Origin: Alphaproteobacteria bacterium
Lineage (GTDB): Bacteria; Pseudomonadota; Alphaproteobacteria; UBA9219; RGZA01
Length of the DNA stretch: 32,850 nucleotides
Reading direction: 5' to 3'
NCBI GenBank assembly: GCA_010031785.1
Contig: RGZA01000008.1
Span: forward strand, 1 to 32,850
The notes beneath the pieces are model-generated. The model was not told where the DNA came from. It made no database searches and saw only the letters and a list, made by a program, of their open reading frames with translations. Shown piece by piece: positions 15,614-21,506 of this stretch. A program made the translations under genes and the position numbers. Within the stretch, counting starts at the first letter, position 1; each line of letters opens with the position of its first letter.

Positions 15614-16309
15614 ATGCTTTTTGCCCGTTTTTTCCTTTTTCTATGCGTTATCGCAGGTGCTACCCCACTTATGGCGGCCGAAGCCCGGCATGTCCCTACT
15701 TTTTCTGAATGTCAGAAACTGGCAAGTAAAAAAACAACCGCGCAGGAAAAAGCACAGCTTACCCAGCTTTTCAAAAGCAATGGCATGTATTGCACCATGC
15801 TTACCGCGCCATTTACGGTGCAGAATATCTTTAGCCCCGGCCAGACCAAGGCGCAATTGCGCCTTACAATCGATCGTTCCAACCATTATGCGATTGATGG
15901 AAAATCATTGCTTGATGTGCTCGCGCCCGATCGCGCGGCTATCCCCATGGCGCATATGGTTTTGCTCGCAGGGCAGATCATCGCGGCGCTTAGTGATGTT
16001 GTGAATGCTGGCGGCAATCCGGAATCAGCAACACATGTTGGACGACATGTAAGCGGCCTTGCTAGCATTGCTGGTGTAAATGCGCGCAGCGCATTACAAC
16101 AGATTAATTTCTTGCGCATGCAAGCCCGCCTTGGTGAAGATGATATCCAACCATCATTTTGGCTTAATAAACTTGCGCTGATGGAACCACCGCCTGCAAC
16201 TGCACCAGCGATTGCTACACCAAACCCACTTGCGGCAAGCCCACCATGGATGCAAAAAGCCTTTGGCGGGATGCAAAATCTTCTCGGCAGTTTCCAATCA
16301 AGCGATTAA
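15614..16309 (+). CDS. Hypothetical secreted protein under a CtrA box
   Basis: A 231-residue protein with no family recognised. Residues 1 to about 22 form a classical signal peptide (MLFARFFLFLCVIAGATPLMAAEA), predicting export to the periplasm. The mature part has two cysteines (TFSECQKL and GMYCTML) that could form a disulfide. A central block DRSNHYAIDGKSLLDVLAPDRAAIPMAHMVLLAGQIIAAL follows, and a proline/alanine-rich stretch (PPPATAPAIATPNPLAASPP) precedes an amphipathic end. The start ATG at 15614 lacks a clear ribosome site. The perfect CtrA box just upstream suggests cell-cycle-timed expression, possibly in envelope, motility or division. The 3' end overlaps the convergent membrane-protein gene by four bases. 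Confidence 0.75.
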   Translation: MLFARFFLFLCVIAGATPLMAAEARHVPTFSECQKLASKKTTAQEKAQLTQLFKSNGMYCTMLTAPFTVQNIFSPGQTKAQLRLTIDRSNHYAIDGKSLLDVLAPDRAAIPMAHMVLLAGQIIAALSDVVNAGGNPESATHVGRHVSGLASIAGVNARSALQQINFLRMQARLGEDDIQPSFWLNKLALMEPPPATAPAIATPNPLAASPPWMQKAFGGMQNLLGSFQSSD

Positions 16310-16794
16310 TTGGAATCCAGCTCTTTGACCTCTTCACCCCAGATTTTGCGGATTTCGACCTGATTGGCTTTGAGTTTTTGTAATTTTATTTCTGAAAGAG
16401 TGGTCAATACCTGCGCAACAATCGGCGGAATAAGGGAGAGCAAGGCAAGCCCAATGCCTGCACCGCCCCACATAATGAGCCAGTTCATCGGGTCCTGCAA
16501 AAGCGTAATCGCATAATCAAGGCGCATGCCCTTCATACCTAATTGAATGACGATATAAGCAACGCCCGTCAGATTTAATGCACCAACCGCCACGCTTACA
16601 CTGCGGCCACGGCTTTTATCGGTGAACGTCGTTGCAATCGTTGGAATAAGCCCGCAAAAAGCGACAATGCTGGCTGGAAGGACGCATAATCCACCAATGC
16701 CAAGAATGATGAAGGCAGGCATTAAACCGCCTTTTCCTTTAGCGCCTTTGGCACCTTTTGTTTTTTCTGCTGCTGGTTTTGCTTCTTTTCCCAT
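16306..16794 (-). CDS. Hypothetical membrane protein, partner of the kinase-like protein
   Basis: A 162-residue protein without a recognised family. It begins with a Lys/Ala-rich low-complexity stretch (about 1-22), followed by three hydrophobic segments (about 25-50, 65-86 and 105-132) and a charged C-terminal tail (EIKLQKLKANQVEIRKIWGEEV) that could be a short coiled coil. It starts seven bases after the stop of the kinase-fold gene and is clearly cotranscribed with it. The two products are both predicted in the membrane and may interact; this is inference from gene order. The stop overlaps the convergent secreted-protein gene by four bases. Confidence 0.75.
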   Translation of the reverse strand: MGKEAKPAAEKTKGAKGAKGKGGLMPAFIILGIGGLCVLPASIVAFCGLIPTIATTFTDKSRGRSVSVAVGALNLTGVAYIVIQLGMKGMRLDYAITLLQDPMNWLIMWGGAGIGLALLSLIPPIVAQVLTTLSEIKLQKLKANQVEIRKIWGEEVKELDSN

Positions 16795-16801
16795 GGTGTT
16801 C

Positions 16802-18787
16802 CTACTGGAATAAACGCAATAAAATAATCAGTAACAGGAAAAATGATAATCCTACTGCGATTACTGCCGCCAGCGGCTGTCCTGCCTGTTCGGCAAGCAG
16901 TTTCCTATTCTTGGCATAGGATTGCAGGCGCGCAACCTCACTTTCCGTTTCCTGATAGAGCATTTTGGCGGCAACAAATTCCTGCTCATCCAGACGCACG
17001 GTATTAGGATCATCTACCAGCGCAAGCAGATCGCGTAATTTTCCTGTCGCTGCTGCGGTTTTTAATTCTTTGCGCACCCGCTCCTGACGCGGGCGATTAT
17101 GAAAACGTTTCACGGCTTCTTCAGTCAAGGGTAATAGTAATGCCGCAAGATTTTTGAGCTGATCAGGCCCGTGCCGTTCCTGCAAATTGCTATAGAAATT
17201 TAAAATTGCGATATTACGCGCGGTCATATCGCGCATCTGGTCGATAAGCGCCATCAGTGATGTGGGTACGCTTTTATCGCGGGCCATCAGGAATGCAGCA
17301 ATATGGCGATCCACCAGTTGCAGCCCGCCAAGCGGCGCACGCCGCTCCATGCTTTCAAGCAATTGTTTTGGATTAAGAACATAGCGCTCGCGCAATTGCG
17401 GATTGAAACATGGCAGCGAGGGATTGCTATCATATAAAAACCGTTCAATACCAAAACCGAGCATTTTGTTTTGCAACATACTTGTGGCTTTTTCACATAG
17501 CTGCACCGCAACAATGACATCCGAGGGTTTATCGCTTTGGTTATCAAGCCAGAGGCTTGGCAGTTTATTGACCAGCATTTCAGCAAAGACGGTAAGCGGT
17601 GCCTCGGTCAAAATCATATGCGCAAGCAACGCTGGCAATGCGCCGGGAAAAACACTGATGCCGCGATAGCGAATGGGCGCAAGCGGATCAAGTGCCATCT
17701 GCACATTGCTGACAAGCCGTTCTTCATCAGAGCCAAAGCGCTGCTGGCGCGTGCTGTTAATAGCATTTTCCAGATTCTTGATGATCTTTTCATCACTGAA
17801 ATGGCTCATCCAGCGCGTGAGATCCTGATTAGAAATATGCGCTGCCGCTAGCTTGGTATCGTTTGTCATTGCATTGAGCAACTGGCGTACCTGCAAATAA
17901 TCCTGACCTGCAAAACGAAACGGGCGATTGGCTTTTTTAGAAATAGCAGCAGGGCGCGGCGTTAAACGCCGTCCCAGCAACCAGTGATCAAAATCATCAT
18001 TATTCCAACGCGAATGCGGATCATCATTGAGCAGCCCATGCAATAGTTCACTGATGCCTTGCGTAAAACGTCGCTCGCCCGCAAGTGCAGCATAACTTCC
18101 GCGCTCGGTTTTCATTTGCACAATCGCTTCATCCGAAAGACCGCGCAGCGGAATATCGCCCGTCATGGCGGCAAGAATAGCAACGCCAAAAGCATAAAGA
18201 TCATCACCGGGTGTTCCGGGCCCACGCGCAATATCGGGCGCTAATCCACGTTGCAATGTTTCATACTGAACAGGCTGGCGATAGGCACATGGTGCACTTA
18301 AACAATCACCAAGCGTGACATTGTTTCCATCGGCAAGAAAAATATTATCCGCGCGGATGGAGCCATGAAACAATCCCATCTTGTGCAGATAACAGATCGC
18401 CTGCCCGAGCGGCTTGATAAAGCGATCAATAACAACCGTATCCTTGATCGGCTGAAAGATGCCATGCGCTGCTTCACCATTTGCAGGAAACGGCGCCATG
18501 CGTTTGCCCGGGATGACATCATAGATAATCGCCATCTGCCGTTGGCCCGAAAGCGGCCAGTCAACAACCTTGGCTTCATGCACTAAATTCAGGCCAGGAT
18601 GCGATAGACCATGAAAGGCAGATAACAGATTAATGCGTGTTGGCAGCTGACCCTGCACAATCAGGGCGATCAGCGCGTTACTATTATTTGTCTTGCTTTG
18701 CGCCGCATAGGCCCTACCTGCGCCGCTGTCAAATTCAGGCAGCGGCTGCATTTCATCGATAGTAATGCGTTCGGAGAAATTGATCAT
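16802..18787 (-). CDS. Tail-anchored protein-kinase-fold protein, probable pseudokinase
   Basis: A 661-residue protein with an N-terminal Ser/Thr-kinase-like domain (about 15-275), a long helical middle region and one C-terminal hydrophobic segment (about 638-659) followed by only two residues. The kinase landmarks are degenerate. The glycine loop is barely present (LPEFDSGAGRAYAA) and the VAIK lysine is absent (NALIALIVQG). The catalytic HRD reads HGS (141-143) in LFHGSIRADNIFL. The DFG equivalent reads GDC with the Asp kept (D161), and N148 is kept. The F-helix Asp motif DDLYAFGVAILAAMTG is intact. This pattern suggests a binding or scaffold role rather than phosphorylation. The start ATG at 18787 has no visible ribosome site and abuts a CTAG palindrome. 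The next gene encodes a small membrane protein. Confidence 0.8.
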   Translation of the reverse strand: MINFSERITIDEMQPLPEFDSGAGRAYAAQSKTNNSNALIALIVQGQLPTRINLLSAFHGLSHPGLNLVHEAKVVDWPLSGQRQMAIIYDVIPGKRMAPFPANGEAAHGIFQPIKDTVVIDRFIKPLGQAICYLHKMGLFHGSIRADNIFLADGNNVTLGDCLSAPCAYRQPVQYETLQRGLAPDIARGPGTPGDDLYAFGVAILAAMTGDIPLRGLSDEAIVQMKTERGSYAALAGERRFTQGISELLHGLLNDDPHSRWNNDDFDHWLLGRRLTPRPAAISKKANRPFRFAGQDYLQVRQLLNAMTNDTKLAAAHISNQDLTRWMSHFSDEKIIKNLENAINSTRQQRFGSDEERLVSNVQMALDPLAPIRYRGISVFPGALPALLAHMILTEAPLTVFAEMLVNKLPSLWLDNQSDKPSDVIVAVQLCEKATSMLQNKMLGFGIERFLYDSNPSLPCFNPQLRERYVLNPKQLLESMERRAPLGGLQLVDRHIAAFLMARDKSVPTSLMALIDQMRDMTARNIAILNFYSNLQERHGPDQLKNLAALLLPLTEEAVKRFHNRPRQERVRKELKTAAATGKLRDLLALVDDPNTVRLDEQEFVAAKMLYQETESEVARLQSYAKNRKLLAEQAGQPLAAVIAVGLSFFLLLIILLRLFQ

Positions 18788-18793
18788 GAAGAA

Positions 18794-18898
18794 AGGGGCT
18801 AGAGGCTAGGATCTAGAGACTAGTAGAAAACGCGTTACTATAATAAGTATTTTTGACTAGAAATTTCTAGCCCCTAGTCTCTAGCCCCTAATCCCTAG
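18794..18898. repeat. CTAG-heptad palindromic element, copy 1
   Basis: The element fills the whole space between the kinase-like gene and purA. CTAG occurs every seven bases at 18799, 18806, 18813 and 18820 in the left arm. In the right arm it occurs at 18867, 18874, 18881 and 18895, with CTAA at 18888. The arms 18794-18816 and 18867-18889 are inverted repeats matching at 20 of 23 positions. The right arm runs into purA, whose TAG stop (18895-18897) is part of the last heptad. The unit approximates CTAGYCY. A second copy lies at 21418-21505. Confidence 0.9.
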
Positions 18899-20187
18899 CT
18901 CTCGAATGGATCTTTCATCAGAATGGTATCTTCGCGCTCCGGGCTCGTGGAAAGGATCGTAACAGGTGCGCCCGTCAGTTCTTCGATGCGGCGTACATAT
19001 TTAATTGCCTGTGCTGGCAACTGTGCCCAGCTACGTGCGCCGCCGGTTGTACCTTGCCATCCTTCAATCGTTTCATAGATGGGTTCAATTTTTGCCTGCG
19101 CAAACTGATCAGCAGGCAGATAATCGAAACGATCATTGCCGATTTTATAGCCAGTGCAGATTTTGAGCTCCGGCAAGCCATCGAGTACATCGATTTTTGT
19201 TAAGGTCAGCCCATCAATACCGCCAAACTTAACCGCCTGACGCATCATCACGCTGTCATACCATCCTACGCGACGCTTGCGCCCGGTGACGGTGCCAAAT
19301 TCACGGCCACGCTCACCAATTTTTTCGCCAATCTCGCTGAATTCTTCGGTTGGGAATGGGCCCGAACCCACGCGCGTTGTGTAAGCCTTACAAATACCAA
19401 GCACCATGCCAATCGCCTTGGGGCCAATACCGCTACCGGTGGATGCTTGTGCAGCAACAGTATTCGATGAGGTAACATAAGGATAGGTTCCAAAATCCAC
19501 ATCAAGCATAATGCCTTGTGCGCCTTCAAACAAAATGCGTTTGCCATTGCGGTTCGCTTCATCAAGCACGCGCCACACAGGAGCAGCATGCGAAAGCAAA
19601 CGCGGCGCCATCTGCATCAGTTCGCCATAGAGCTGATCAACGCTGACTGTTTCTGCACCATATCCTTTAAGCAATAGATTATGGTGTTCCAGCAATTCAC
19701 CAAGCTTGGTTTTAAGATGTTCAGGATGCTGTAAATCACACACACGTATGGCCCGGCGGCCAACCTTGTCTTCATAGGCAGGGCCAATGCCACGGCCTGT
19801 TGTACCAATTTTTGCATTGCCCTTGGATGCTTCGCGCGCGCGATCAAGCATGCCATGCACCGGCAAAATCAGCGCAGCATTTTCAGCAAGCAATAAATTT
19901 TGCGGTGTAATTTTTACGCCCTTTTCAGCAATCGCATCCATTTCTTTAAGCAACGCTGCAGGATCAACTACAACGCCATTGCCGATAATCGAAAGCTTGC
20001 CACCGCGCACAACACCGGATGGCAGCAAACTCAATTTATACACAACGCCATCAATCACCAGCGTATGGCCAGCATTATGTCCGCCCTGAAAACGCACCAC
20101 CACATCGGCTCTGCTTGAAAGCCAATCAACGACTTTTCCTTTACCTTCATCACCCCATTGGGCGCCGACGACGGCTACGTTAGGCAT
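18895..20187 (-). CDS. purA: Adenylosuccinate synthetase
   Basis: Joins IMP and aspartate using GTP, the first committed step to AMP. The 430-residue protein has the P-loop-like GDEGKGK (12-18) with catalytic D13, the GHNAGHT motif with the catalytic His, [14 protein letters not shown], and the nucleotide block [23 protein letters not shown]. Length matches the family (about 430). An AAGGA ribosome site precedes ATG 20187. The last codons and the TAG stop sit at the edge of the CTAG palindromic element, so the stop codon lies inside the repeat. It follows hisZ by 94 bases on the same strand. Confidence 0.97.
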
Positions 20188-20281: not shown

Positions 20282-21412
20282 CTATACCGCTTTTGCCTTG
20301 CCATTTTCCAAAACTGCCTGACATTGCTGGCGTTTTGCCTCTGTGGTCAGATCATTGCTGCGCTTTAAACAACGCAAGACGACATAGCCTTCTTTAACCA
20401 GTGCATCGCATTGCGCAGCGCTTGTTTCAAACGCAACCAGAATGCTGGGGCGCGGCTTTGTGGGCGGCAATACCGGCATGAGGCTTTCTGCATAAAAGGT
20501 GAAACCGGTTGCAGGCTCCTGACTTGCTGTGCGGTAACGTCCGCCACGGCCCAGTTCTTTACGGGTGCTTTTTGAAAAAATCGCAAAGCTTAATCCGGTC
20601 TGATATTCAAAGCCGCGATATTCCACCAGATCAACAGTGATGTGTTCGATCATGTCGGCTGGCAGCAATTCCAGAACGCGGATCAAACGTGTACGATCCA
20701 GCGCAGCCTTTTGCGGCAGATCCATGGTCGTTAATGCCTTCACCGCTTTGCGTGCATCACCGCTTGCGCGCAACAAGGCAAGTGCAAGCCCGCATAATTT
20801 TTCTAGGCCCGCTGTTTTAGAAAGCGCCTGCACCAGCGCCTCATCCTTGCGGTCGAGCGCATGATGCAGTTCACTGCGCGCAAGGGGCAAAATTTCAAAT
20901 GCATCACATAAACTCGGCACAAGTGTTGGCAAGGTGATATCAACGCTAACATCCTTGATGCCTGTTTGTGAAAGGCTCTGCACTGCAAGCATCATCACTT
21001 CGGCATCGGCTTCAGCATCAAGGCTGCCGATCAGCTCGGCGCCAACCTGCGTCATTTGCCGCGCGGGATTTTGCTCATGCGCAGAAAGGCGCACAATCGG
21101 CCCGGCATAGGAAAGACGCAGAGGGCGCGGCGAAGATAATAAGCGCGTTGCGGCAATGCGCCCGATCTGCAACGTATGATCACTGCGGCAGGCAAGCATG
21201 CGCTGCGCTGCTGGGTCCATCACGCGGAAGGTGGTGCGGTTTAATGCCGCGCCAGGCCCTGATAACAGGGTCTCTTCAAATTCCATCATGGGCGGGCTTA
21301 CGCGGCCATAACCTTGCTCTGCAAAACGGGATAGCAATGTCTCTATTGCTGCAGCTTCCCTTTGAGCATCAGGCGTAAGAACATCATAAAAACCGGCGGG
21401 AAGAAGATTCAT
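20282..21412 (-). CDS. hisZ: ATP phosphoribosyltransferase regulatory subunit HisZ
   Basis: A 376-residue class II aminoacyl-tRNA-synthetase paralogue related to HisRS. It forms a complex with short-form HisG and makes it active and feedback-sensitive in histidine synthesis. The N-terminal LPAGFYDVLTPDAQREAAAIETLLSRFAEQGYGRVSPPMMEFEE and RSDHTLQIGRIA match HisZ. The central part has VEYRGFEYQTGLSFAIF and ELGRGGRYR. Unlike HisRS there is no full C-terminal anticodon-binding domain; the protein ends with a short tail. Its start ATG (21412) lies six bases from the CTAG palindrome and has no ribosome site. Its partner HisG is not in the window. Confidence 0.92.
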   Translation of the reverse strand: MNLLPAGFYDVLTPDAQREAAAIETLLSRFAEQGYGRVSPPMMEFEETLLSGPGAALNRTTFRVMDPAAQRMLACRSDHTLQIGRIAATRLLSSPRPLRLSYAGPIVRLSAHEQNPARQMTQVGAELIGSLDAEADAEVMMLAVQSLSQTGIKDVSVDITLPTLVPSLCDAFEILPLARSELHHALDRKDEALVQALSKTAGLEKLCGLALALLRASGDARKAVKALTTMDLPQKAALDRTRLIRVLELLPADMIEHITVDLVEYRGFEYQTGLSFAIFSKSTRKELGRGGRYRTASQEPATGFTFYAESLMPVLPPTKPRPSILVAFETSAAQCDALVKEGYVVLRCLKRSNDLTTEAKRQQCQAVLENGKAKAV

Positions 21413-21417
21413 TTGAA

Positions 21418-21505
21418 AGGGACTAGGGGCTAGAGGCTAGGGACTAGTATTTTTATCGAATATCTTTATCTTCTGCTAGTCCCTAATCTCTAGCCCCTAG
21501 TCCCT
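21418..21505. repeat. CTAG-heptad palindromic element, copy 2
   Basis: Two 30-base arms, 21418-21447 and 21476-21505, are inverted repeats matching at 28 of 30 positions, around a 28-base AT-rich centre. CTAG recurs every seven bases at 21423, 21430, 21437 and 21444 on the left. On the right it occurs at 21476, 21490 and 21497, with CTAA at 21483. The element spans nearly all of the 94-bp divergent space between hisZ and hemB and ends one base before the hemB ATG. As RNA it would fold into a long stable hairpin in either leader. Confidence 0.92.
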
Positions 21506-21506
21506 C

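Follow-up and report, generated by a model that had tools for sequence, protein, structure and literature searches.

A family of tail-anchored pseudokinases in Alphaproteobacteria encoded with a small membrane protein

Results

The window, by which we mean the whole stretch of 32,850 nucleotides that was analysed, is one contig of a genome bin placed in Alphaproteobacteria by its named relatives. It carries on its reverse strand two neighboring genes that a sequence-only reading had singled out as encoding a pseudokinase and a membrane partner. Both open reading frames are present (Table 1). The gap between them (positions 16795-16801) is 7 bases, as that reading had counted, with an AGGA just ahead of the partner start; judging by this spacing, the two genes are probably co-transcribed.

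Table 1. Features of the pseudokinase-partner locus and its upstream neighbors
Feature	Coordinates	Strand	Description	Basis
Pseudokinase gene P0001	16802..18787	-	661 aa; kinase-like ~1-272, helical ~285-628, C-terminal anchor ~629-661	
Kinase-like domain	17972..18787	-	Residues 1-272; lacks beta-3 Lys and HRD Asp	PF00069, AF2 model, Foldseek, 146-member alignment
Catalytic-loop equivalent	18344..18367	-	H141-G-S-I-R-A-D-N148 (active kinases: HRDxKxxN)	Translation and family variation
Helical domain	16904..17935	-	Residues 285-628; without known family	
C-terminal membrane anchor	16805..16903	-	Residues 629-661	Hydrophobic C-terminus in 142/146 members
Partner gene P0002 (essentially obligate)	16306..16794	-	162 aa; head rich in Lys, three hydrophobic stretches, last helix carrying W152-G153 (near-invariant)	
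purA (adenylosuccinate synthetase)	18895..20187	-	Commonest upstream neighbor of the pair	Named by reading; synteny
hisZ	20282..21412	-	Usually upstream of purA	Named by reading; synteny

The larger protein belongs to the protein kinase-like superfamily by profile and by fold. PF00069 matches residues 119-262 with an E value of 6e-9 and 36.1 bits, against a curated cut-off of 31.7, and an AlphaFold2 model built from 29 orthologues (pLDDT 88.7, pTM 0.82) retrieves kinases from the PDB with Foldseek, among them B-Raf and PknB, at E ~1e-8 and a TM score of ~0.7 on the kinase part. The model confidently predicts a kinase fold, which is followed by an all-helical domain of ~345 residues and by a hydrophobic C-terminal helix. 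The helical region had been put at about 360 residues, near the size found here, and the C-terminal membrane anchor proposed for this protein corresponds to a hydrophobic segment that is present in it. Such an anchor occurs almost throughout the family, and the term tail-anchored is apt because a median of 4 residues lie past the hydrophobic window.

Catalytic residues were counted in an alignment of 146 distinct members of the pseudokinase family. The window protein has I43 at the position of the VAIK Lys, with no Lys in beta-3, and H141-G142-S143 instead of HRD, both as the sequence-only reading had them; N148, D161 and D196 are retained. In the family, the beta-3 Lys is absent from 145 of 146 members (Ile, Val or Leu in 138, Lys in 1). 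The HRD Asp is likewise absent from 145, its position being taken by Ala in 73, Ser in 27, Gly in 19, Asn in 15, other residues in the rest, and Asp in 1. The reading had named orthologues with HRD and VAIK residues as the observation that would count against it, and the alignment shows the opposite, so that the catalytic losses are a family trait, not an oddity of a single sequence. Since these losses fall within the definition used in PMC12599244, we call the family members pseudokinases; of the residues by which an active Hanks-type Ser/Thr kinase is recognized, the beta-3 Lys and the HRD Asp are each lacking in all but one member. In two genomes (G129:C6:14549-16518 and G586:C110:68-2015) the pseudokinase is divided between two matches that overlap or abut and lie in different frames, which suggests frameshifts or sequencing errors.

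Other parts of the kinase core are kept. Asn148 of the catalytic loop is found in 144 of 146 members, Asp196 of the F helix is invariant (146/146), Arg260 and Trp261 are retained in 145, and R51, directly after beta-3, in 140. The position equivalent to the DFG Asp is acidic in 139 members, but as Glu in 78 and as Asp in only 61, so that the Asp listed as retained by the sequence-only reading holds for the window protein but not for most of its relatives. Retention of the Asn and of an acidic residue for metal binding would fit an atypical protein kinase that remains active with its catalytic residues relocated, as would the one member, from Skermanella (L063, 9950-11989), that carries Asp at the HRD position (HGDIRPTN). 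We consider this very unlikely, given that Lys and HRD Asp are both lost family-wide, that the HGD member also lacks the Lys, and that helix C has no conserved Glu across the family.

The prevailing loop motif is H-[RGN]-[ASGN]-I-R-P-T-N, with HGAIRPTN common, and the pocket residues H141, N148, G160 and R51, together with the acidic residue 161 and R145, rank among the most conserved of the protein. The kinase-like pocket is conserved in an unusual form, and its conservation would be compatible with a different kind of enzyme as well. Because the pocket is so well conserved, the main rival to a purely non-catalytic role is that the kinase-like domain carries out a non-phosphorylating reaction, such as the AMPylation of SelO or the glutamylation of SidJ, on a membrane client, the partner serving as its substrate or cofactor. 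SelO, like the family described here, has a kinase fold without the HRD Asp and a loop that ends in Asn, tabulated as Hgvmntdn (PMC12599244), which HGAIRPTN resembles. However, the beta-3 Lys is retained in both SelO and SidJ (PMC12599244), and the DFG in SelO as well, whereas the Lys is missing from all but one member here. In addition, the SelO family profile gave no Pfam match among the pseudokinase members scanned. To our knowledge, SelO is not tail-anchored. We regard an enzymatic role of this kind as unlikely.

The partner has the Lys-rich head and three hydrophobic stretches expected of the three-helix protein that had been described from the sequence, but its first stretch (residues ~24-58) is modeled as short broken helices and is perhaps a re-entrant hairpin. 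The head has a net positive charge in 118 of 131 relatives. A long final helix ends in W-G, with W152 in 146 and G153 in 144 of 147 sequences. The model of the partner (pLDDT 82.8, pTM 0.57) has no convincing relative in the PDB, and no Pfam or NCBIfam family fits the sequence. Apparent partner fusions, in frames of up to 934 aa, were discarded because these open frames simply read on across the pseudokinase gene.

Evidence for a dedicated membrane partner comes from co-occurrence. Among 289 genomes drawn across Alphaproteobacteria, with weak kinase-only matches removed, 99 have the pseudokinase, and every one of these also has the partner; 2 genomes, both incomplete bins, have the partner alone, none has the pseudokinase alone, and 188 have neither (Fisher p 2e-76, a descriptive value that ignores relatedness). 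More telling than the Fisher value is that in genus g5 the two genes are apart, yet both are retained in the genome. Copy numbers match in G164 (three of each) and in G209, G304 and G307 (two of each); they are unequal in G159 (four pseudokinases, three partners) and in G046 and G178 (one and four), which belong to one genus and hold three extra unlinked partner paralogues beside a single pseudokinase (L201-L206). At the level of the locus, a strict rule puts the partner next to the pseudokinase in 112 of 131 cases, and removal of false ORF extensions adds another 4 (~116), in a set in which some species are represented twice; several Magnetospirillum loci have no adjacent partner at the locus itself. 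Protein distances of the two correlate (r 0.74; partial r 0.58 when controlled for purA, with some shared ancestry remaining), but those of the pseudokinase and purA correlate as strongly, and the distance correlations therefore mainly reflect vertical inheritance. Taken with the unlinked cases, the near-perfect co-occurrence strongly supports the proposed partnership, and the two genes are essentially an obligate pair.

Of 59 related genomes, 40 contain relatives of the pseudokinase, and a GTDB species set yielded 343 stretches with relatives; the 80 that were kept include Azospirillum, Skermanella, Magnetospirillum, Thalassospira and Terasakiella. In the genomes sampled outside Alphaproteobacteria, there were only partial matches to the kinase domain and none to the helical domain. 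That the protein might be a degenerate remnant without function, as the loss of catalytic residues could suggest, is hardly credible: it is kept in about a third of the sampled alphaproteobacterial genomes, nearly always intact and with a dedicated partner, and the conservation of residues along its full length already contradicts this idea.

For the helical domain, neither Pfam, NCBIfam, PDB sequences nor PDB folds offered a convincing relative. A weak internal repeat in this domain (E 0.003, 10% probability) is not claimed, and a role in anti-phage defence was set aside, the PADLOC matches being restricted to the generic kinase domain. No literature on the locus was found. A pseudokinase family with this helical domain and partner was absent from the profile libraries and open papers searched, which is consistent with the description of the pair as undescribed; an earlier mention elsewhere, as in the KINtaro family tables, is conceivable.

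The usual gene order is serC, serA, hisZ, purA, pseudokinase and partner, followed by rpoH, which is convergent, and by an rluD-like gene (all named by reading). The gene directly upstream of the pseudokinase is purA in 31 of 57 loci of the class sample and in 47 of 67 loci of the named set, and in 69 loci the partner faces a converging rpoH-like gene. The pair could accordingly be thought to modulate a neighboring process, either purine and histidine synthesis (purA, hisZ) or membrane proteostasis (FtsH, sigma-32), the latter recalling one related genus (L207-L210, L215-L217) in which the pseudokinase comes right after ybgF-tilS and, for L208-L210, the partner lies 5-7 bases after ftsH, as if the usual tilS-ftsH locus had been split with one member of the pair in each half. 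Yet the pair of many other lineages has unrelated neighbors, such as ilvD, rpoN, argG, hisB or serA (named by reading), and because the neighbors vary in this way we take the neighborhood as inherited synteny and not as a functional statement; the ftsH link represents one or few events. The varied contexts weaken a metabolic link through purA and hisZ, and we judge a role in a neighboring process to be quite improbable. In one locus (L213, 5879-7249, G202) the partner is apart from the pseudokinase and still convergent with an rpoH-like gene.

Two intergenic regions of the window, between purA and the pseudokinase (18788-18894) and between hisZ and hemB (21413-21506), are filled by CTAG-rich imperfect palindromes that fold to strong hairpins (z -5.3 and -9.2, respectively); five further contigs of the genome hold comparable sequences. 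Since the purA gap of a relative (L032) is just ~42 bases and lacks the element, it seems to belong to a repeat family dispersed among intergenic regions.

PF00069 matches nothing but the pseudokinase in the genome of the window, and in almost every genome of its order no other full kinase domain exceeds the PF00069 cut-off. The single other match above the cut-off in the order (G026) spans 70 profile positions. Weaker matches around profile positions 70-150 fall in frames of 440-570 aa that may be UbiB-like. As almost no genome of the order has another full kinase match, allosteric regulation of an active Hanks-type kinase is unlikely as the general function of the pseudokinase.

Discussion

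Membrane-anchored bacterial pseudokinases are already known, EssB/YukC and MviN among them (PMC12599244); what is apparently new here is a pseudokinase family with its own helical domain and a dedicated partner. Several published families were considered and do not fit, GLW, CP1 and DLHK by motif or domain and EssB and SelO by motif and profile. GLW pseudokinases of Proteobacteria have GLW in place of HRD (PMC12599244), whereas the loop here is mostly of the H-[RGN]-[ASGN]-I-R-P-T-N type and the beta-3 Lys position holds Ile, Val or Leu without an LLLL/W motif. CP1 pseudokinases are defined by a COG3899 ATPase domain and have no transmembrane region (PMC12599244); the family here has a C-terminal anchor and no ATPase domain in the Pfam scan. 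Among the nearest profiles is that of class IV lanthionine synthetases (LanL), matched only in the kinase part and at a score far under the LanL cut-off, and PknB and CuvL are among the nearest by fold, in the kinase domain only. The LanL kinase domain and PknB keep their catalytic residues, unlike the family described here.

The closest analogy is to EssB/YukC of the type VIIb secretion system of Firmicutes, in which a membrane-anchored, cytoplasmic pseudokinase domain has a non-catalytic scaffolding role (PMC12599244). The family shares with it the combination of such a domain, a membrane anchor and, possibly, the scaffolding logic, and differs in its degenerate motifs, its large helical domain, its tail anchor and its alphaproteobacterial hosts. 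Of 29 members scanned at E 0.1, none matched the YukC family profile, and no secretion-system genes (T7SSb: EssC, WXG100) were recognized by eye in the neighborhood of the pair.

Of the two roles that the sequence-only reading had suggested at the membrane, nucleotide sensing and a scaffold complex, the former would involve a pocket conserved in an unusual form, and the latter is plausible and is the reading that we prefer; more specifically, we think it somewhat probable that the pseudokinase and its partner form a non-phosphorylating scaffold or sensor complex at the inner membrane with a logic comparable to that of EssB/YukC. The pseudokinase would be tail-anchored, with its kinase-like module and helical domain facing the cytoplasm and its last helix in the membrane, and its obligate partner would probably dock via its transmembrane helices, via its cytoplasmic WG(D/E)xV tail, or both. 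Without phosphorylating, the kinase-like module most likely uses its altered but conserved pocket (R51, H141, R145, N148 and the acidic residue 161) to bind a ligand or a protein; such binding could set the conformation of the helical domain, which in turn may recruit or regulate a client at the membrane.

Most bacterial pseudokinases have received no study, and a partner is known for few of them. The family described here, with members in Azospirillum, Magnetospirillum, Thalassospira and other genera, comes as a whole with a dedicated membrane partner and, in most genomes of the order to which the window belongs, with no second full match to a Hanks-type kinase. The non-catalytic use of a kinase fold is thereby directly testable. 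It is conceivable, although we hold the idea only tentatively, that the pair is a dedicated ligand-sensing membrane module: a kinase fold devoid of phosphotransfer would sense a cellular ligand and signal through the unrelated helical domain and the obligate partner to a client. If this is true, such a module would be present in about one third of the sampled alphaproteobacterial genomes.
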